From Actinomycetota bacterium (GTDB taxonomy: Bacteria; Actinomycetota; CADDZG01; WHSQ01): 37,508 nt of DNA. This document shows, in pieces, positions 80 through 12,859 of this stretch; positions within the stretch are counted from its first letter, which is position 1, and each line of letters opens with the position of its first letter. The position numbers were made by a program, and so were the translations under genes. The stretch spans positions 1-37,508 of the forward strand of contig WHSV01000029.1 in the NCBI GenBank assembly GCA_009379915.1. Reading direction: 5' to 3'. The notes under the pieces are model-generated. The model was not told where the DNA came from. It made no database searches and saw nothing but the letters and a program-made list of their open reading frames with translations.

Positions 80-3000
80 TTGGAGCGAATGCGGTTCTCG
101 ATCCTGGGACCTCTCGAGGTCATCCGTGACGGCCGAGCCCTGGCTCTCGGCGGGGCCAAGCAACGCAGCCTGATCGCGATCCTGATTCTGCATGCTAACG
201 AGCAGGTTTCGTCGGACTCCCTCATCGAGGAGCTCTGGAGGGACTCACCCCCGGCGACCGCGGGCAAGACTCTCCAGACATACATTTCGCACCTTCGGAA
301 GCTGCTCGAACCAGAACGGGTTGCCGGGGAACCGTGGCGACTGCTGCTCACCGTCCATTCGTCATATTCCCTCCGAGTGGAACCCGACCAGCTCGACAGC
401 CTACGGTTCGAGCGATTGGTGCGAGACGCGAGGACGGCGATTGCGTCAAGAAACCACGACCGAGGACGAGTCAAGCTGGAAACTGCCCTGGGTCTTTGGA
501 GGGGGCCGGTCCTGGGAGACATGGCGTCCGAGCCATTCGCTCGATCGGAGGCAGCACGACTGGAGGCGCTTCGCCTATCCGCGCTCGAGCTGCGCGTGGC
601 GACCGATCTGGAATTGGGTCGTCACGCAGAAATCGCGCCTGAGATCGAGGAAGCGGTTCGCACCTATCCGTTCCGAGAAGGATTCACCGGCCATCTCATG
701 GTCGCGCTCTATCGGAGCGGACGTCAGGCCGACGCACTGTCGGCTTTTCAGCGCCTGAGAGAGGCGCTCGTCGATGAGCTGGGAATCGAACCGAGTCCTG
801 ATCTCCAGGACCTTTACCAACGAGTTCTTCGTCAGGATCCGGCGCTTAGGCCCCCGGAATCATCGACCGCAGCAGCGTCCCCGCGTCCCTCCGGTGGTAT
901 CGGTGACGCCGACGCGCGTCCCCGCGTCGCCGGCGGCCTGCCTCTGGTCGGTCGCGATCGGGAGCTCGAGATGCTCCGTGCGCAATGGAATCTAGCGCGT
1001 GGCGGCACCTTTAGGTTTGCAACGATCGGGGGTGAGCCGGGGATCGGCAAGAGCCGACTGGCGCGGGAGGTAGTGGTGCTCGCACGCGATGAAGGCGCAA
1101 CGGTTCTGGTTGGTCACTGTGCCGAAGAACCTCTCCTTCCTTACCAGCCGTTCGTGGAGGCCCTGAGGGAGAACCCCGAGGTGATAGAGATGGTCGATCT
1201 CCCAACACCTACCGGGCGTGATCGATTGCTACGGCTCATTCCCGATTCGATGGACGGTTCGGAGTCGCTCGACCCCTCTGACGAAGACCATGAGCTCAGC
1301 CGGTACCAGCTTTTCGATGCCGTCACTTCGATGTTTACCGCCGCGTCGCAGCGGACGCCGCTTCTGGTTGTCCTCGAGGACCTGCATTGGGTCGACAAGG
1401 CAACGTTCGCGCTCTTGAATCATGTAGCGCGGGTTCCCGACATTCCACTTCTGATCCTGGGCACATACCGGCAGAGCGACGTTTCCGACCGGCACCCCGT
1501 CGCCCGGTTGCTGTCCGATCTTCACGCCAGCCGGCGATTGGAGCATATTGCTCTCGAGTCGCTGGACGCCAAGTCCATCGCTCGCATGACCTCGCTGATT
1601 GTTTCCGGCGAGCCCCGAAGCAAGTTCGTAGAGGCGCTCACGGACATGACCGACGGTAACCCGTTCTATATCGAGGAGCTTCTTCGTCATCTCATCGACA
1701 CTGGTGCGCTCGACCCGTCCGGCGATCTCTGGCCCGATTCGGAGTCGCTCGAGGAAGCCGGGATCCCTCACAGCGTGAGAGTGATCATCCGACGGCGGCT
1801 CTTGCGACTGTCGGATTCGGCGAGCGATGTCCTGGCGCAGGGCTCGGTTCTTGGTCGGCAGTTCGATTTCCATATGCTCGGGGGACTTGCCGGAATGGAA
1901 GAAGAACTGATACCCGTCGTCGAGGAAGCTGTGTCGGCGGGGTTGCTCATTGAGAAGAAGACGACCTGGGCTGCGAACTACGCGTTCTCGCACGCTCTGG
2001 TACGCCGGACCCTTTATGACGGTCTCAGTCAACCCCGGCGCCAGCGCTTGCATCTTCGGGCCGCCGAGCTCATCGAAGCCTCGGCAGAGCCCGGTTTCGG
2101 CACGATCAGCGCGGCCGCCGCACACATTCACCTTGCGGGATCGGCCGCCGAGAACGATGTTGCGATTCCGCGCTTGATGGCCGCGAGCGAAGCTGCGAGC
2201 AGCGTGTACGCCTGGGATGACGCGATAGCCCACCTTCGTCTCGTGCTCGAACGATTGCGTCGCTCGGGGGCCCCGCGCGAAGACCGAGCGGCCCTTGCCG
2301 AACGCATAGGCGCTCTCACCTATGCAACTGGGGCTGAGTATGAACTCGGCCTCGCTTGTCTCCGGGAAGCCCTCGACCACTTCGAGGCCATAGGGGACGA
2401 AAGGAGTGCTGCACGGGTGCACTCCAGGCTCGGGTTGCAGTTGGCGACTTATCCGACCGTCATGGACATCCCTGCGGCTCTCAGCCACTATCACGCCGCA
2501 AAGGACGTTCTGGGCGAGGACGAGAGCGTGACGGCCGGCTACCTCTACCTTGGGATGGCTATCGCCGCAGTCTTCGCCCTCGAAACCCGCTCAATCGGTG
2601 CGGCTTCGGCGCGTGCCGTGGAGCTTGCCGAGACAATCGGCAACGAACAACTAGTTCAATCGACCGAGTATTCGCGCTGTTGGTATCTGTTCAACCAGGG
2701 CCGGCTGGCCGAGAGTTTTGGCCTCAACGATCGCATCTGGGAGCGGGCTCGCCGGCTCGACAACACTCGCACGGCCGCGTGGTGCGCCTTCGGTCGCAGC
2801 ATCTGGAGCGGCATCTACCTCGCAAATCCAATCGAGGCCGAGGCCTGGTGCACCCGCGGACTCGCGCTGCCCGACCTGACCGCCTTTTCACGGCAGCACA
2901 AGAATCTTCTCGACCGGAAGGGTGAGGTCTACGGAACACGAGGGGATCTGGCGCGAGCGCGAGAGTCTCTTGCCGACGTAGGAGAGAACTCGGTCGTCGA

Positions 3001-3640
3001 ACGACTGGTCCACTTCTGGGACGGTGAATGGGAGCGAGCTGAGCGGGCGTGGGCGGACGCTGAAGCTGCCGACCTTCGTGCCGGTAATCGCCTCGAGGCG
3101 GCGCTGAACTGTTATTGGTTGGGCCGCGTCCGCCGCGTCGGGGACCGACCGGAGGCGGGCCTCGACGCATTACAGCGCGGATTGACCATGGCGCTCGACG
3201 GCCCCCAGGTTCCGCTCGAGCTCATGCTCCGCACGGAGATCGCGGAGGCATGCCTCGACATGCGACAGCTCGACGACGCGCGTTCTCACCTAAATAGATG
3301 CCGAGAGATTCTCGCCACAGGCGAGGATTGGGGTGGTCGTGCTGGTCAGGTGTCCCTGGCCGAAGCGCGACTTCGCTCCCTCGACGACCGCGGGCCCGAG
3401 GCGGATCGGGACTTTGCCGAGGCAATCGAACTCCTCACGCGGTGGAGTCTCGTCTGGGAGGAGGCGGAAGGTCACCTCGGATGGGCACGGGCTCTGATCG
3501 AGGCTGGTCGAGCCGGTGAGAGCCGCGAGCACATTGCGATCGTCAAAGACACCTACCTTCGGATCGACGCGGGAACCCGCTGGAGCGAACGGGCCACGGC
3601 GGCAGGCGATCCTCAGGGGTCAATCTCGACGACCCTGTGA
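80..3640 (+). CDS. BTAD/SARP-type transcriptional regulator with AAA ATPase domain
   Basis: This 1186-aa protein has the AfsR-like layout. Residues about 1-95 form an OmpR-type winged helix for DNA binding and about 100-245 form the bacterial transcriptional activation domain. An AAA_16-type ATPase follows, with a P-loop GEPGIGKS near residue 318 and an acidic Walker B stretch VVLEDLHW near 430. The last ~500 residues are helical and TPR-like. Such proteins activate secondary metabolism or stress genes in response to ATP and ligand binding. The chosen start is TTG with AGGGA just upstream; an in-frame ATG at 89 is the alternative. The targets are unknown, although a short peptide gene and a cupin gene follow. 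The reading frame is intact throughout. Confidence 0.93.
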   Translation: MERMRFSILGPLEVIRDGRALALGGAKQRSLIAILILHANEQVSSDSLIEELWRDSPPATAGKTLQTYISHLRKLLEPERVAGEPWRLLLTVHSSYSLRVEPDQLDSLRFERLVRDARTAIASRNHDRGRVKLETALGLWRGPVLGDMASEPFARSEAARLEALRLSALELRVATDLELGRHAEIAPEIEEAVRTYPFREGFTGHLMVALYRSGRQADALSAFQRLREALVDELGIEPSPDLQDLYQRVLRQDPALRPPESSTAAASPRPSGGIGDADARPRVAGGLPLVGRDRELEMLRAQWNLARGGTFRFATIGGEPGIGKSRLAREVVVLARDEGATVLVGHCAEEPLLPYQPFVEALRENPEVIEMVDLPTPTGRDRLLRLIPDSMDGSESLDPSDEDHELSRYQLFDAVTSMFTAASQRTPLLVVLEDLHWVDKATFALLNHVARVPDIPLLILGTYRQSDVSDRHPVARLLSDLHASRRLEHIALESLDAKSIARMTSLIVSGEPRSKFVEALTDMTDGNPFYIEELLRHLIDTGALDPSGDLWPDSESLEEAGIPHSVRVIIRRRLLRLSDSASDVLAQGSVLGRQFDFHMLGGLAGMEEELIPVVEEAVSAGLLIEKKTTWAANYAFSHALVRRTLYDGLSQPRRQRLHLRAAELIEASAEPGFGTISAAAAHIHLAGSAAENDVAIPRLMAASEAASSVYAWDDAIAHLRLVLERLRRSGAPREDRAALAERIGALTYATGAEYELGLACLREALDHFEAIGDERSAARVHSRLGLQLATYPTVMDIPAALSHYHAAKDVLGEDESVTAGYLYLGMAIAAVFALETRSIGAASARAVELAETIGNEQLVQSTEYSRCWYLFNQGRLAESFGLNDRIWERARRLDNTRTAAWCAFGRSIWSGIYLANPIEAEAWCTRGLALPDLTAFSRQHKNLLDRKGEVYGTRGDLARARESLADVGENSVVERLVHFWDGEWERAERAWADAEAADLRAGNRLEAALNCYWLGRVRRVGDRPEAGLDALQRGLTMALDGPQVPLELMLRTEIAEACLDMRQLDDARSHLNRCREILATGEDWGGRAGQVSLAEARLRSLDDRGPEADRDFAEAIELLTRWSLVWEEAEGHLGWARALIEAGRAGESREHIAIVKDTYLRIDAGTRWSERATAAGDPQGSISTTL

Positions 3641-3811
3641 GCCATCACAAGCTCTAGGAGAAGGCTTCCCGGCTCCTCGTAACGCCACCGTAACTCCCCC
3701 GTTCCAACGGAACCCGACCGCGCCATCGCACGATGCGTTCTGGGCAACAATGCGTGACGTGGCCCCCTGAGCTGGACGTCAGTCGATCCGGGCAGAGCCA
3801 ACGAGGAGAAC

Positions 3812-3949
3812 ATGGCAATGAAACAGCATCGAAGGCTTGGGGTCGTTCTGTCAGAACCGACCCAGGCGCAGCAGCCACGCACGGAGCCAGTCCCAACTCC
3901 ATCCCCGCTCAATATCAGCGTTGCTGGCGCTCGCTCGGTGAGCAGGTAA
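3812..3949 (+). CDS. Candidate 45-aa small protein, function unknown
   Basis: A short ORF starts MAMKQHRRLGVV and ends SVAGARSVSR. It has a strong ribosome site (GAGGAG, five bases before ATG) and its stop is followed within 6 bases by a GC-rich hairpin, so it looks like a complete transcription unit. The N-terminus is basic, the middle is rich in Pro, Gln and Thr, and there is no Cys, no signal peptide and no membrane helix. Its last codons and stop resemble the end of a second ORF ending at 5134 (SVAAPRM), which also precedes a copy of the cupin tail. It lies 171 bases after the SARP regulator. I do not recognise a family; a peptide substrate or regulatory peptide is possible but unproven. 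Confidence 0.5.
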   Translation: MAMKQHRRLGVVLSEPTQAQQPRTEPVPTPSPLNISVAGARSVSR

Positions 3950-3954
3950 GTCGT

Positions 3955-3985
3955 CCCGGGAGGTGGTCGCTACTCTCCTCCCGGG
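3955..3985. terminator. Hairpin between the 45-aa ORF and the cupin gene
   Basis: CCCGGGAG and CTCCCGGG form a perfect 8-bp stem around a 15-base loop. It sits between convergent genes, six bases after the small ORF stop and ten bases after the cupin stop on the other strand. There is no T tract, so it may act in either direction or by stalling. The duplicated copy of this junction near 5134-5141 lacks the hairpin. Confidence 0.55.
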
Positions 3986-3986
3986 G

Positions 3987-4018
3987 TGACTGTTATCAGT
4001 GGGAGTGCGATCCGACCT
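3987..4018. repeat. 32-bp direct repeat, copy 1 (over the cupin stop codon)
   Basis: This copy covers the last codons and stop of the cupin gene (…VGSHSH then TGA, read on the minus strand) plus nine bases downstream. It is identical over 32 bases to 5141-5172. The sequence begins TGACTGTTATCAG. The repeat therefore derives from duplicated cupin-tail sequence rather than a mobile-element end. Confidence 0.85.
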
Positions 4019-4538
4019 TCATCGAGCAATCGTCCGGCGCTTCGACACCCTCGGTGATGGTCAGAGGGCCGGTCTCGGGGACGTCGTAGAAGGTCGCATA
4101 CACGACGGTCACGCCGTTGGTGGGATTAAAAGCGGTGTGCACGGCCTTCTTACCGGGATCGACGAAAGCAGTGCCTGTCGGATAAGGCCGTTCCACGCAA
4201 TCGTTGGCTCGGACGTAGACCAGTTCGCCCTGGGCGACGTTTACCAGCACCGGGCCGGGATGAGTATGCCAGGGGAAACGGGCACCGGGCTGGACCGTGA
4301 TGCGCGCCACCGCGGTGCGAGAGGCGTCCTTGAGCTTGATGACCCGGCGCCGCGTGGTTCCGTCGAGCCTGTAGTGGACCTTGAGGCCGACGTCGTCGGT
4401 GAATTCGCCGCGCGGTGTAAGCAATTCGACGGCGATCGGAGGAGGTTCGGTCTGCGCACCCGACGGCAGCACCGTCGCCATCGTCACGCCGAGTACCGCC
4501 AACACGACACTCACGGTGGCCATGAGTTTCCTCTTCAT
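3996..4538 (-). CDS. Secreted cupin-domain protein
   Basis: A 180-aa protein with an N-terminal signal peptide (MKRKLMATVSVVLAVLG…, cleavage near SGAQT), so it is probably exported. The rest is a single cupin barrel: FPWHTHPGP supplies the first metal-binding histidines, followed by GELVYV, a turn with a lone Cys, and PGKKAVHTAFNP with the last histidine. The start at 4538 is favoured over a longer frame to 4619 because AAAGGAG lies just upstream and the signal peptide begins there. Cupins of this kind bind metals or small molecules, and the substrate is unknown. The C-terminal codons are duplicated at 5141-5172. It is convergent with the small ORF and downstream of the tautomerase gene on the same strand. 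Confidence 0.88.
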   Translation of the reverse strand: MKRKLMATVSVVLAVLGVTMATVLPSGAQTEPPPIAVELLTPRGEFTDDVGLKVHYRLDGTTRRRVIKLKDASRTAVARITVQPGARFPWHTHPGPVLVNVAQGELVYVRANDCVERPYPTGTAFVDPGKKAVHTAFNPTNGVTVVYATFYDVPETGPLTITEGVEAPDDCSMKVGSHSH

Positions 4539-4589
4539 CTGTGTCTCCTTTCGAAAGGCATGGAAGCCTTCTTTTTGACTGTTGCTCTT

Positions 4590-4620
4590 CTTGACCCGGT
4601 ACTCGTAGGCCCGGGTCAAG
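4590..4620. terminator. Perfect 10-bp inverted repeat between tautomerase and cupin genes
   Basis: CTTGACCCGG and CCGGGTCAAG flank an 11-base loop. It lies 41 bases after the tautomerase stop and 52 bases before the cupin start on the minus strand. With no T tract it could be a terminator for the tautomerase gene, an attenuator for the cupin gene, or an operator. The sequence alone does not decide. Confidence 0.5.
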
Positions 4621-4661
4621 CTTCAAAGCGGATCGCTTGGTGCTATCGGACGCTCGAGTCT

Positions 4662-4889
4662 CTATCCGACGGGCGCGCCTTGCGCGAGGTCCCTGACGTC
4701 TTGAGTTGTGAGGACCTTGCCTCCGATACCCCAGTCGCCGCTTCGAACCTCTTCGATGACGACCATCGTGACACCGCGCATGTTTTCGCCTTCGATGGAC
4801 ACCATCGTGTCGGTGAGCTTCTCGACGATCTCCCGCTTCTGCTGTGGCGAGAAGACCTCTTCGATGAGCTTGACGTTGATCAAGGGCAT
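4662..4889 (-). CDS. 4-oxalocrotonate tautomerase-like protein
   Basis: A 75-aa protein starting M-PLINVKL. Removal of the initiator Met exposes the N-terminal proline that is the catalytic base of the tautomerase superfamily. A mid-protein stretch KREIVEKLTDTMVSIEGENMR and the VVIEEV beta strand fit the 4-OT fold, which assembles into hexamers from ~60-75-aa subunits. The start is fixed by GGAGGTG eight bases upstream and by the need for Pro2; a longer frame to 4937 would bury that proline. The family isomerises enol/keto acids in aromatic degradation, but no catabolic genes are adjacent, so the substrate is unknown. Confidence 0.9.
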   Translation of the reverse strand: MPLINVKLIEEVFSPQQKREIVEKLTDTMVSIEGENMRGVTMVVIEEVRSGDWGIGGKVLTTQDVRDLAQGAPVG

Positions 4890-4972
4890 GTTGCACCTCC
4901 AGGGTTGTGAACCAACTTTCCATGCACATTGCGGCACGGCGGTTGAGTTGCGGTTGAAGACCGGTTGAGTGG

Positions 4973-5134
4973 ATGTTGCGGCATGTCCGTCGCCATGCGA
5001 AAGAACGTCCGTTTCCTGCTACCTCGGCCCCCGTCTATGAGCACTACTCGTCGGCGCCCGCCTGCCAGCACCAGCTTGGCAAGCATCCCTTCAGGACCTT
5101 GATCGATACCAGCGTTGCGGCCCCGCGCATGTAA
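4973..5134 (+). pseudogene. Possible decayed duplicate of the 45-aa ORF (3' end)
   Basis: A 53-codon frame runs from ATG at 4973 to TAA at 5132. Only its end resembles the small ORF at 3812: both share AGCGTTGC, then a GTAAGTCG stop region, then the cupin-tail repeat. The tails read NISVAGARSVSR and DTSVAAPRM. No good ribosome site precedes 4973 and the first ~45 codons do not match. I read it as a remnant of a duplicated peptide/cupin junction rather than a working gene. Confidence 0.3.
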
Positions 5135-5140
5135 GTCGAC

Positions 5141-5172
5141 TGACTGTTATCAGTGGGAGTGCGATCCGACCT
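5141..5172. repeat. 32-bp direct repeat, copy 2 (orphan cupin tail)
   Basis: Identical over 32 bases to 3987-4018. Read on the minus strand it encodes VGSHSH and a TGA stop, but no cupin gene is attached: the gamma-glutamyltransferase gene starts 93 bases further on. It marks one end of an old duplication or an insertion junction. Confidence 0.85.
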
Positions 5173-5265
5173 CGGTGCGATTGGACGCAAACGGAGGTCG
5201 GTGAGACGATTTCGGCGTAGCCGTGTCGCCCGTTCTGGGCCCTTTGCTTCGCAAGGAGGCGCGCC

Positions 5266-7041
5266 GTGACAAGAAGTACCCGCTCCGCCCTCACCCTGAC
5301 GCTCGCCCTCGTCCTCGTCCTCCCCGGGACCCTCGGCGTCACGCCGACGACTGCGCAGGTAACCAAGCAACCTACCGCCGTCGGCACTGGCGGGGCCGTG
5401 GCCTCCGTGGAGCTCCTGGCCTCGGAGGCGGGCATCGAGATCCTCCGGGCCGGCGGTAATGCGGTGGACGCCGCGGTGGCCGCCGCGGCCGTGCTCGGCG
5501 TCACCGAGCCCTTCTCCTGCGGCATCGGCGGGGGCGGCTTCATGGTCGTGTACCGAGCCTCCGACCAATCCGTGACCACGATCGATCACCGCGAGACGGC
5601 GCCCGCCGCCATGCGGCCCGACTCCTTCTGGGAGGGAGGCGCTCCGCTTTCCTTCTCGGACGCTCGGTGGAGCGGTCTGTCCGCCGGCGTCCCAGGGTCC
5701 GTCCGCGGCTGGGAGGAGGCGCTGGATCGGTTCGGCACCATGAAGTTCCGTGACACCCTCCGGCCGGCCATTCGGGTGGCACGGGAGGGCTTCGAGGTCG
5801 ACCAGGTGTTCCACGACCAGGTGGCTGCCGTCGAGGACTTCTTCGACGACATCTCCTCGACGAAGGAGACCTTCCTCGACCCGGACGGAACCGCCCCCGA
5901 CGTGGGCTCCACTTTCCGCAACCCCGACATGGCTCGGGCCTACGAGAGGATCGCCCACCTCGGGTCCAAGGGCCTCTATCGAGGCGCCATCGCCTCCGCC
6001 ATGGTCCGTGCGGCGCAGGAACCGCCCCTCACCCCCGACGCGAACCATGTCTGGCGGCCGGGCGACATGACCATGCGGGACCTGATGGGCTACCGCGCCC
6101 CCCTCCGTGAGCCCGCGGCGGTCTCGTACCGGGGTCTGGACGTGTACGGGATGGGTCCGCCCTCCAGCGGCGGCTCGACCGCGGGGGAGGCCCTGAACAT
6201 CCTGGAGGGCTGGGACCTGGGGGCGCTGCCCCGGGAGCAGGCGCTTCACTATTTCCTGGAGGCCTCCGCGTTCTCGTTCGCCGACCGGAACGCCTATCTC
6301 GGTGACTCGGACTTCGTGGACGTGCCGCTCCAGGGGCTGCTTTCGCAGGGGTTCGCCGACGAGCGGCGGGCCCTGATCGGCGAGACGGCCGCCGCCAAGC
6401 CGGTTCCGCCGGGCGATCCATGGCCCTTCGAGCCCGGCAGCGGGAGCGTGGCGACGGCCGCGGCGGCCGGGCCGGGCGGCGAGACCACCACCCACCTCAC
6501 GGTGTCGGATCGGTGGGGAAACGTGGTCTCGTACACCTACACGATCGAGTCCACGGGCGGCAACGGGATCACCGTGCCCGGGTGGGGCTTCCTGCTCAAC
6601 AACGAGCTCACTGACTTCGACTTCGCCCTCCTGGACCACCCCAACAGCGTCGAGGGCGGCAAGCGGCCCCGGAGCTCGATGAGCCCGACGATCGTGCTGG
6701 AGAACGGGCGGCCGGTGCTGGCCGTGGGGTCGCCGGGCGGCTCCATGATCATCACCACCGTCCTCCAGATCCTTGCGAACCACCTCGACTTCGGGATGAG
6801 CCTCCCGGACTCGATCGCCGCGCCGCGGGCGTCCCAGCGCAACAGCGCGGACGTGTTCGCCGAGCCGGCCTTCCGGAGCGCCTGGGAGGCGCCGCTGGCC
6901 GCGCGCGGTCATACGTTCACGACCAGCGCCGAGATCGGGGCCGCCACGGGGATCGCCTTCCTCCCGGAAGGGCTTGTGGTGGCGGCGGCGGAACCCGTGC
7001 GACGAGGCGGTGGCAGCGCCATGGTGGAGAACCCCGATTGA
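5266..7041 (+). CDS. ggt: Gamma-glutamyltransferase (secreted)
   Basis: A 591-aa Ntn-hydrolase precursor. An N-terminal signal peptide (hydrophobic LTLTLALVLVL, cleavage near TTAQ) sends it out of the cytoplasm. The family cleaves itself into large and small subunits before a threonine that becomes the nucleophile; here this is the first Thr of TTH at residues 408-410 in GETTTHLTV. The small subunit keeps STGGNGI, the GFLLNNELTDF loop, and PRSSMSPTIV/GSPGGSMI, the usual substrate site. It would cleave gamma-glutamyl bonds of glutathione or related peptides. GTG start with AAGGAGG upstream. Composition is unusual: 58 of 60 codons in 6421-6600 end in G or C, against 48 of 60 in a comparable stretch of the next gene, suggesting separate origin. 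Confidence 0.95.
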   Translation: MTRSTRSALTLTLALVLVLPGTLGVTPTTAQVTKQPTAVGTGGAVASVELLASEAGIEILRAGGNAVDAAVAAAAVLGVTEPFSCGIGGGGFMVVYRASDQSVTTIDHRETAPAAMRPDSFWEGGAPLSFSDARWSGLSAGVPGSVRGWEEALDRFGTMKFRDTLRPAIRVAREGFEVDQVFHDQVAAVEDFFDDISSTKETFLDPDGTAPDVGSTFRNPDMARAYERIAHLGSKGLYRGAIASAMVRAAQEPPLTPDANHVWRPGDMTMRDLMGYRAPLREPAAVSYRGLDVYGMGPPSSGGSTAGEALNILEGWDLGALPREQALHYFLEASAFSFADRNAYLGDSDFVDVPLQGLLSQGFADERRALIGETAAAKPVPPGDPWPFEPGSGSVATAAAAGPGGETTTHLTVSDRWGNVVSYTYTIESTGGNGITVPGWGFLLNNELTDFDFALLDHPNSVEGGKRPRSSMSPTIVLENGRPVLAVGSPGGSMIITTVLQILANHLDFGMSLPDSIAAPRASQRNSADVFAEPAFRSAWEAPLAARGHTFTTSAEIGAATGIAFLPEGLVVAAAEPVRRGGGSAMVENPD

Positions 7042-7384: not shown

Positions 7385-9178
7385 ATGTCGGGATTTCTTG
7401 CGCGGATGTGGACCAGCTCCGCTAACGCACTGGACAACCGGTTCCACTGGGATCGCATGCCGCGGCCGTTGGGGATCTTCACCCTCGCGGGATTGCGCAA
7501 CCTCTACCGTGAAAAGAACCTCTACGACACGAACACGACGTCACCCACCGAGGAGGCGGTGAGGAAGGAAGAGGCGCCGGCCAACACCAATACCCGCACG
7601 CTCGACGGCAGCTATAACGATCTCAACGACCCCGCGATGGGGAGCATCGGCAGCCGCTTCGGGCGCAACGTTCCACTCGAGGCCACGCATCAGGAGAAAG
7701 AACCCGACATCCTGGAGCCAAGTCCTCGACTGATCAGCCGACGGCTGCTGACCAGAGACGAGTTCATCGCAGCCACGACGTTGAACGTCCTTGCCGGTGC
7801 GTGGCTACAGTTCGAGGTCCACGATTGGTTCAGCCACGGCAAGAACGAACCGGAGAAACCCTGGAAGATCGAGCTCGACGAGGGCGACGACTGGGCCCAG
7901 GACCCCATGGAGATACAACGCACCCGCCAGGACCCGACCTCCGACTTCGACGAAGCAACTCCCCCCACCTACGTCACCGACGACAGCCACTGGTGGGACG
8001 GTTCGCAGATCTACGGAAATACGCGCGAGTTCGCCGACAAGCTGCGTGCGCACGAGGACGGAAGGATCCGGATCGACTCATCGGGTCTGCTTCCGAAGGA
8101 TCTGGAAGAGGGACTCGACCTCACCGGAGCGCAGGGCAACTTCTGGATCGGCCTCGGCCTGCTGCACACGCTCTTTTCGCTCGAGCACAACGCCATCTGC
8201 GAGCGGCTACGGGACGCCTATCCGACGTGGTCGGATCAAAAGCTCTACGACCACGCACGGTTGATCAACGCGGCGCTGATGGCCAAGATCCACACCGTCG
8301 AGTGGACGCCGGGGATCATCGCCCACCCCACCACCAAGCTCGCCATGAACGCCAACTGGTGGGGCCTGATGGGAGAACGATTCAGAAAGCGCTTCGGACG
8401 GGTCGGGTCGAGCGAGATCCTCAGCGGCATCCCTGGAGCTCCGACGAAGCACTTCGGAGTGCCCTACTCGCTAACGGAGGAGTTCGTCGCCGTCTACCGA
8501 ATGCATCCTCTCCTCCCCGACGACTTCACCTTCCGCTCGCTCGAGAACGACGGCGTCCTTCAGGAGAGGACCTTCCGCGAGGTCGGAGCGCTCGAAACCC
8601 GCACCCGCATCGAAGAGATAGGAATGGCGAACGCGCTGTATTCGTTCGGAGTCGCGCATCCAGGAGCGATCACGTTGCACAACTATCCTCGTTTCCTTCA
8701 GACCTTCGAACGCCCTGACGGAACCAAGATGGACCTCGCGGCCGTGGACATCATGCGAACGCGTGAGCGCGGCGTCCCTCGCTACAACGAGTTCCGCAGG
8801 CTCTGGCACCTCAAACCCGCGGAGTCCTTCGAGGATCTGACCCAGGACGCGGCGCGGGCCGAGGAACTGAGCAGCATCTACGGTGGAGACATCGAAAAGC
8901 TCGATCTCATGATCGGTCTCTATGCCGAGCCACTCCCAAAGGGGTTCGGGTTCAGCGACACGGCCTTTCGGGTCTTCATCCTCATGGCGTCCCGGCGGCT
9001 CAACAGCGACCGCTTCTTCACGATCGACTACAGGCCCGAGGTCTACACGCAAGAGGGCATCGATTGGGTGAGCAACACCACGATGGTCGACGTGTTGCTG
9101 AGGCACTATCCGCAGCTCGCGCCGGCCCTCAGTGGAGTTGAGAACGGCTTCGGCCCCTGGAAGAGGGTTCGTCCCTGA
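7385..9178 (+). CDS. Alpha-dioxygenase-like haem peroxidase family protein
   Basis: A 597-aa member of the animal-type haem peroxidase superfamily, closest in motif pattern to plant and bacterial fatty-acid alpha-dioxygenases. The distal haem histidine is in FEVHDWFSHG (H146). The catalytic tyrosine and proximal haem histidine are in VYRMHPLLPD (Y371, H374). The conserved KIHTVEWTP and NYPRFL blocks are also present. Such enzymes add oxygen at the alpha carbon of fatty acids to give 2-hydroperoxides. There is no signal peptide, so it is probably cytosolic or membrane-associated. The ATG start follows GAAGGGAG. It stands alone, with a VOC protein gene downstream. The function is inferred from motifs; related peroxidase-cyclooxygenase activities cannot be excluded. 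Confidence 0.88.
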   Translation: MSGFLARMWTSSANALDNRFHWDRMPRPLGIFTLAGLRNLYREKNLYDTNTTSPTEEAVRKEEAPANTNTRTLDGSYNDLNDPAMGSIGSRFGRNVPLEATHQEKEPDILEPSPRLISRRLLTRDEFIAATTLNVLAGAWLQFEVHDWFSHGKNEPEKPWKIELDEGDDWAQDPMEIQRTRQDPTSDFDEATPPTYVTDDSHWWDGSQIYGNTREFADKLRAHEDGRIRIDSSGLLPKDLEEGLDLTGAQGNFWIGLGLLHTLFSLEHNAICERLRDAYPTWSDQKLYDHARLINAALMAKIHTVEWTPGIIAHPTTKLAMNANWWGLMGERFRKRFGRVGSSEILSGIPGAPTKHFGVPYSLTEEFVAVYRMHPLLPDDFTFRSLENDGVLQERTFREVGALETRTRIEEIGMANALYSFGVAHPGAITLHNYPRFLQTFERPDGTKMDLAAVDIMRTRERGVPRYNEFRRLWHLKPAESFEDLTQDAARAEELSSIYGGDIEKLDLMIGLYAEPLPKGFGFSDTAFRVFILMASRRLNSDRFFTIDYRPEVYTQEGIDWVSNTTMVDVLLRHYPQLAPALSGVENGFGPWKRVRP

Positions 9179-12364: not shown

Positions 12365-12859
12365 ATGACGGAACTGCAGTACCCGAACACCAAGGGCACC
12401 GAACGAGAACTCTTGAACGAGTATCTGGAGTGGTACCGCTCTGCGATCCTCCGAAAGATCGAAAGCGCTTCGGGCGAGACCGTTCGGGCGCGGATCGTTC
12501 CTTCGCAGACGACTCTGCTGGGAATTGTCAAGCACCTCGCATGGATCGAGATCTGGTGGTTCCAGATGGTCTTCGCGGGACGACAAGTTGACTTTCCCAC
12601 GAGCGATGAGGATCCCGATGCCGACTGGCGTATCGAACCCCAGGAAACGGCGGAGCAGATCATCGCTTTCTATCGCGAGGCATGTGCCGAGAGCCGCGCC
12701 ATCGTCGCCGGGACCGAAGACCTCGATGCGGAGTCTGTGCGCGCCGGTAAGAAGTACAACCTTCGTCGGATCCTGATCCACATGATCGAAGAGACCGCGC
12801 GCCACACGGGACACGCCGACATCTTGCGCGAACTGATCGACGGACAGACCGGCGACTGA
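12365..12859 (+). CDS. DinB family (DUF664) protein
   Basis: A 164-aa four-helix-bundle protein. It has the DUF664 pattern: an early helix ELLNEYLEWYRSAILRKI, then TTLLGIVKHLAWIEIWWFQ with the first metal-type His, a PDADWRIEP segment and HMIEETARHTGHADILRELIDG at the end with two further histidines. DinB-like proteins bind a metal through three histidines, and some are thiol-dependent S-transferases using mycothiol or bacillithiol. The substrate here is not known. ATG start with AAAGGAG upstream. It is followed by a hairpin and a convergent gene. Confidence 0.92.
   Translation: MTELQYPNTKGTERELLNEYLEWYRSAILRKIESASGETVRARIVPSQTTLLGIVKHLAWIEIWWFQMVFAGRQVDFPTSDEDPDADWRIEPQETAEQIIAFYREACAESRAIVAGTEDLDAESVRAGKKYNLRRILIHMIEETARHTGHADILRELIDGQTGD

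Follow-up and report, generated by a model that had tools for sequence, protein, structure and literature searches.

A duplicated cupin gene end in an actinobacterial contig, and the association of BTAD-domain regulators with its cupin family

The DNA analysed here (hereafter the window) is 37,508 bp long and constitutes the whole of contig C10 in a 3.39-Mb draft genome from the Actinomycetota. Close to its left end, a sequence that includes the end of a cupin gene occurs twice in the same orientation, in a small group of genes that follows a large SARP-type regulator. An earlier note on this DNA attributed the repeat to an old tandem duplication of a unit comprising a short peptide gene and the cupin gene, and regarded the combination of a SARP regulator, a short basic peptide, a secreted cupin and a tautomerase as unfamiliar from described systems. 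The locus raises the question of what was duplicated, whether the proposed peptide gene is real, and what the proximity of regulator and cupin might signify.

The regulator gene (80-3640, plus strand) encodes a protein of 1186 residues in which a winged-helix DNA-binding domain (Trans_reg_C, 37.0 bits) is followed by BTAD (157.5 bits) and AAA_16 (88.8 bits) domains, all scoring above the Pfam cut-offs, and by TPR_12 and TPR_19 matches that fall below them. A winged helix followed by BTAD is the arrangement that marks AfsR/SARP proteins, and the complete order of winged helix, BTAD, AAA_16 and weak TPR matches is also that of AfsR/SARP-type regulators; since, however, the protein reaches 186.5 bits against the NCBIfam AfsR equivalog, for which the cut-off is 1430 bits, we describe it as SARP-type and not as AfsR itself. 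Unlike the regulators of antibiotic clusters, it lies in a stretch where a scan of 16 window proteins revealed no enzyme typical of such clusters. A gap of 171 bases separates the end of the regulator gene from the start of the 45-codon open reading frame (ORF; 3812-3949, plus strand) proposed as the peptide gene, beyond which lie the cupin gene (3996-4538, minus strand), convergent to the regulator, and, on the same strand and upstream of the cupin, the tautomerase gene (4662-4889). The first gene to the right of the second repeat copy encodes a gamma-glutamyltranspeptidase (5266-7041, plus strand; PF01019, 492 bits). Beside it the window carries, in a bacterial genome, an animal-type haem peroxidase (7385-9178; PF03098, 375 bits), and a protein of the mycothiol-S-transferase family (PF04978) is encoded at 12365-12859.

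The cupin scores 29.6 bits against Cupin_2 (cut-off 27.2) and carries the metal-site motifs FPWHTHPGP ... DPG ... HTAFN, so that profile score and HxH-plus-His metal residues together place it in this family. Across 29 sequences H92, H94, H135 and N139 (residue numbers run one higher than when counted from the initial Met) are invariant, as are the elements PWHTHPGP, DC, H and N. The AlphaFold model (pLDDT 83.7) matches cupin barrels, the best solved match by fold and by profile being the manganese cupin TM1459 (Foldseek E 1e-6; profile E 2e-4 to 4e-4), and among the best 50 structure matches listed are cupin hydroxynitrile lyases; the HxH ... H site of these small Mn/Fe cupins is retained in the window protein. 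All these fold matches are distant, with query TM-scores of 0.36-0.46 and identities of 12-28% among the best 50 listed. The protein falls below the cut-off of the NCBIfam (R)-mandelonitrile lyase model NF049940 (31.2 against 140 bits), and no enzyme activity is predicted for it with confidence. It differs from the small Mn/Fe cupins in its length of about 180 residues, in its one invariant and one near-invariant cysteine and in its predicted export, which is probable in view of a hydrophobic N terminus and of a lipobox-like LAGC or similar motif visible by eye in several relatives; it may be an extracellular enzyme acting on a small compound. The tautomerase exceeds the Pfam cut-off for PF01361 (53.7 against 22 bits), lies just below that of the 4-oxalocrotonate tautomerase family TIGR00013 (53.3 against 56.9 bits) and begins Met-Pro, the second residue of which we take to be the catalytic proline. 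Most likely the two genes form a small operon, whose tautomerase would stay in the cytoplasm and whose metal-binding cupin would be exported.

The repeat itself is unambiguous. The 32 identical bases reported earlier are present as an exact direct repeat (3987-4018 and 5141-5172), the stop region GTAAGTCG is indeed shared by both copies, and a search of the 3.39-Mb genome allowing up to 3 mismatches places this core at these two positions only. Within it, 23 bases belong to the cupin gene, comprising the last six codons (VGSHSH), the stop codon and two bases of a seventh codon, and the remaining 9 are 3' flank; copy 2 accordingly reads VGSHSH-stop on the minus strand, a cupin tail lacking its body. 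To the left of the core the likeness continues in decayed form, with 32 of 36 aligned bases identical between 3909-3953 and 5103-5138 and gaps of 1, 1 and 7, a score that was reached by none of 2000 dinucleotide shuffles of the anchored stretch and by 2 of 500 of a wider stretch. This decay implies that the duplication is not recent. In the other direction, into the cupin body, 4019-4620 and 5173-5300 align no better than shuffled sequence (265 of 500 shuffles reach the score). The repeat is, then, an old duplication of the cupin 3' end and its downstream flank.

Between the two parts of copy 1 lies the hairpin that the earlier note had called a terminator and had found to be missing from the second copy. 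Its arms fall within 3949-3991, between the convergent SARP and cupin genes, and the region 3945-4000 folds at -30.3 kcal/mol (z -4.58; none of 200 shuffles as stable); in copy 2 the corresponding 33 nt (3954-3986) are represented by the dinucleotide AC. A strong hairpin that is absent from the second copy is thus confirmed, whereas its description as an intrinsic terminator is not, as no T-run follows it and a terminator scan does not list it. It may end transcription of the two convergent genes. The genome holds one other GC-rich palindrome of such shape, giving no sign of a repeat family, and Rfam returned nothing credible for 3600-5300.

The history that we favour, with moderate confidence, treats copy 2 as the remnant of a tandem duplicate now lying beside the transpeptidase gene, and the tautomerase-cupin pair as an operon near the SARP-type regulator and probably controlled by it. 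On this account the whole cupin unit, possibly with the tautomerase (about 1.15 kb), would have been duplicated in tandem, after which the body of the right-hand copy would have disappeared, so that six or seven codons, the stop codon and the flank survive beside the gamma-glutamyltranspeptidase gene. We prefer it because the copies share one orientation and are spaced 1154 bp apart, approximately one cupin-plus-tautomerase unit. Tandem duplication followed by loss can leave gene remnants, and the direct repeat, decayed flank and truncated partner expected of such remnants are all found here, with nothing unusual about them; the duplication by itself is ordinary. A complete second cupin most likely once existed, a conclusion that stays at the level of inference because the sequence to the right of copy 2 shows no recognisable cupin body and the bases adjoining it are not cupin-like beyond chance.

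These last observations equally suit a shorter event, in which about 70-110 bp of cupin tail and flank were copied beyond the tautomerase gene and a second cupin never existed. We consider this possible, if doubtful. Consistent with it, the similarity ends sharply at 5172, and the 36 bases adjoining the copy 2 core show no likeness beyond chance to copy 1 or to the tails of four relatives; in ungapped comparison 1913, 2097 and 2690 of 5000 shuffles did equally well over 9, 18 and 36 bases, respectively, and in gapped comparison 151 of 2000 did so. Against it stand the spacing and orientation just described, as well as the decay of the left part, which dates the event early enough for a cupin body to have been deleted since, although neither point is decisive; a tail-only duplication would leave the same trace as a tandem duplication with subsequent loss of the body. 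The codon next to the core had at first seemed to argue well for a second cupin in the past, as it is GAG (Glu) in copy 2 and AAG (Lys) in copy 1, and the four relatives, L028-L031, have Glu there (GAG or GAA), with tails IEVGSHSN (L028, past an early stop), VEVGAHGSH (L029), VEVGSHAHP (L030) and VEAGAHGSH (L031). This agreement amounts to a single base that could be a chance match, and was given less weight once the further bases proved not to be cupin-like beyond chance, a result that also made the larger duplication less probable, and the shorter one more probable, than we had judged before. One of these relatives (L028:8785-9366, in the same-family genome G009) is itself a cupin gene with an early TAG, after which codons resembling the old C terminus, IEVGSHSN, remain.

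A functional origin, with the 32-bp repeats serving as recombination or regulator sites at the borders of a mobile cupin-tautomerase cassette, is improbable. It would explain why 32 of 32 core bases are identical beside a stretch at 89% identity, why two genes are bracketed by direct repeats, and why the SARP gene is not common to the rest of the family. However, 23 of the 32 bases are simply cupin gene, the genome contains no further copies, no integrase or transposase occurs among the 16 window proteins scanned, and 32 straight matches at 11% divergence are an event of about 2% (0.89 to the 32nd power), which is not extreme.

The model of the earlier note, in which a peptide gene and the cupin were duplicated together and the peptide is made, fares worse still, and we regard it as very improbable. 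The 45-codon ORF exists, and its claimed strong ribosome site is present as GAGGAG three bases ahead of the ATG at 3812; moreover, the gaps between the copies total 9 nt, so that a short C-terminal stretch can stay in frame. Yet an ATG-initiated ORF of at least 45 codons arose on the same strand in 638 of 2000 shuffles (32%) of the 355-bp intergenic stretch, and the codon log-likelihood of the ORF, -5.7, is typical of spurious frames: 51% of 268 spurious open stretches score at or above this value, and 1.5% of 137 real 45-codon chunks at or below it, under a codon model whose training set, 12 window genes, was also the source of the chunks and with the proviso that small genes can differ in codon use. 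Where the two copies align without gaps over 26 nt, five codons differ, four of them (judged by eye) encoding a different residue, with no bias towards synonymous change.

Homology searches give the same picture. The 45-residue product matches no Pfam or NCBIfam model; in its own genome it finds itself and one chance match (E 0.27, with an internal stop), and in 23 other genomes of the class nothing better than E 0.03, four of the eight matches between E 0.03 and 0.1 running across stop codons. Nor does the pairing of short ORF and cupin, whose recurrence the earlier note proposed to check, reappear: no peptide match at E 1e-3 occurs in the fetched loci holding cupin relatives, and low-threshold tblastn against these loci returned noise among the matches listed. 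The intergenic DNA (3641-4020), compared with 24 genomes, recovers itself and the known repeat, all other matches being at E 0.068 or worse. The earlier note had itself named a lack of homologs of the ORF in related genomes as grounds for refutation, and within the genomes and loci searched this is what we find. Of the proposed duplication, therefore, the cupin tail and flank stand, and the peptide part, which has neither homologs nor codon signal, does not; the ORF is not supported as a coding gene and looks non-coding, although a very young or unusual small gene at 3812-3949 remains conceivable.

That the draft contig is misjoined at the repeat is most unlikely, for although the core is about the length of a k-mer and GC, about 0.6 ahead of the transpeptidase gene, reaches 0.70-0.74 there, the flanks differ on both sides of both copies, a misjoin would not create the decayed left similarity, the transpeptidase gene is GC-rich in relatives too (GC 0.65-0.68, GC3 0.75-0.84), and GC returns to 0.61-0.63 beyond it. 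The window transpeptidase gene (GC 0.71, GC3 0.90; contig GC 0.63) is richer in GC than its relatives, which are themselves GC-rich. We rejected the idea that it was inserted as foreign DNA and thereby destroyed the second cupin, given GC-rich genes with 58-67% identity in four genomes of the family; the flanks of these four loci (up to 1.5 kb per side) contain no cupin, tautomerase or SARP match.

There remains the question of what the regulator and cupin have to do with one another. The cupin is rare: at E 1e-20 or better it is present in 12 of 396 sampled genomes of the phylum, a count that includes the genome of the window. A single pattern-based scan of a species-genome collection supplied 30 named cupin loci, several of them truncated by contig ends. 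BTAD regulators stand beside this cupin family in excess of chance: they occur in 14 of the 30 loci against 0.56 expected under random placement, from each genome's own BTAD count and amount of locus DNA (P about 1e-17), and, when the Nitriliruptoraceae are removed, in 7 of 19 against 0.23 (P about 5e-10), these P values being a guide only, since real gene placement departs from randomness and related genomes do not count as separate observations. Plain tblastn with the window regulator detects 15 of the 30 loci, the match in one of them (L048) being confined to the AAA part. Of the regions taken from these 12 phylum genomes, with the two weakest cupin hits (G049, G062) set aside, five lie on contigs not already counted; a BTAD match is present in three of the five (strong in L118, at a distance of 5 kb; weak or partial in L119 and L120) and an oxidase adjoins the cupin in two (L119, L120), whereas L115 and L116 have neither. 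Plasmid records yielded one distant cupin, and phage records none.

The profiles used to look for other partners had been built from the same 30 loci, and part of the matches were checked against Pfam, so that the counts of these partners are descriptive. A LuxR-type regulator occurs in eight loci (L036, L038, L042, L043, L049, L050, L056, L057), with shorter matches in L048; a methyltransferase lies directly upstream of the cupin in six (L037, L039, L047, L048, L053, L055); and another six (L029, L034, L040, L044, L045, L052) have a berberine-bridge-type FAD oxidase either next to the cupin or separated from it by a single gene, L047 and L053 having one at a greater distance. HxlR regulators occur near the cupin in L046 and L053 and farther off in L047, and a tautomerase is near it in L035. 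Five loci (L032, L041, L051, L054, L058) hold none of these partners, L051 having a winged-helix TPR regulator. In four of the six methyltransferase loci (L037, L039, L047, L055) the methyltransferase gene is divergent from that of the BTAD regulator, as seen at L037:2720-3775 and L039:2902-4386. Contrary to the impression that the grouping at the window is without parallel, regulator, tautomerase and cupin also occur together in an Ilumatobacter MAG (L035), in which the tautomerase and cupin genes almost touch and the regulator is divergent, and the pairing of regulator and cupin is common.

When 40 BTAD domains are placed in one tree, those from the five oxidase-linked loci (L034, L040, L044, L045, L052) form one clade (SH-aLRT 99) although their hosts are Halomonadaceae (Pseudomonadota) and Nitriliruptoraceae and Hoyosella (Actinomycetota), which suggests, from the branching, cassette transfer between phyla; three methyltransferase-linked BTADs form another clade (SH-aLRT 100). 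Taken together, the 15 cupin-linked BTAD rows are modestly clustered (9 changes against 12.3 when shuffled; 18 of 500 shuffles as low), and the window regulator falls in no supported clade of them. Partner types are also clustered on a cupin tree of 29 rows (14 changes against 19.8 when shuffled; none of 200 as low), for which host kinship may partly account.

Several observations speak against a regulator-cupin module in the window itself. Its regulator is convergent to the cupin; elsewhere the pairs are divergent or co-directional. The window regulator has no homolog at E 1e-80 in the 15 other genomes of the family, and homologs with 35-40% identity in four of the eight other genomes of the class. 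The 10.4-kb contig of G009 that carries the nearest cupin in the family, about 70% identical, lacks any BTAD match. In another genome of the class (G016, contig C43; L013, L141), a distant cupin (E 6e-6) lies some 6 kb from a regulator homolog of 35% identity. Among the open-licence PMC papers listed, none was seen to describe BTAD and cupin genes as a pair; one of them (PMC5748679), on a GAF-BTAD protein that regulates denitrification in Thermus, appears to be unrelated to these loci.

Returning to the preferred reading, control of the tautomerase-cupin operon by the window SARP is probable, the argument being one of analogy, as it draws on the wider association of BTAD regulators with this cupin family. 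We read these neighbourhoods as a candidate regulator-linked module built around an exported cupin, with exchangeable enzymes. In its window version the SARP, acting as an AAA-TPR switch, would respond to a small compound and then raise transcription of the tautomerase and cupin genes, and the exported cupin, with Mn or Fe bound, would convert a related compound outside the membrane. As a complete chain this is a tentative proposal: the association at its base is observed, and the regulation, metal and substrate are conjectural.

With similar reserve, we suggest that the loci may represent an undescribed modular system present in more than one phylum, in which a regulator, often one small-molecule enzyme, and a three-histidine exported cupin would make or remove a diffusible compound sensed by the regulator, the window being the tautomerase version with the scar of a second copy. 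The component parts, assigned no more firmly, would be a BTAD-AAA-TPR, LuxR or HxlR regulator and a berberine-bridge-type oxidase, methyltransferase or tautomerase. The duplication scar is of little import, and the association of cupin and regulator is the part worth following. Should this neighbourhood hold, it would provide a handle on the role of the many uncharacterised BTAD-AAA-TPR regulators; if the reading is true, these regulators have as neighbours an exported protein and a small enzyme for which a substrate might be identified, and would thereby offer a testable target outside antibiotic clusters.
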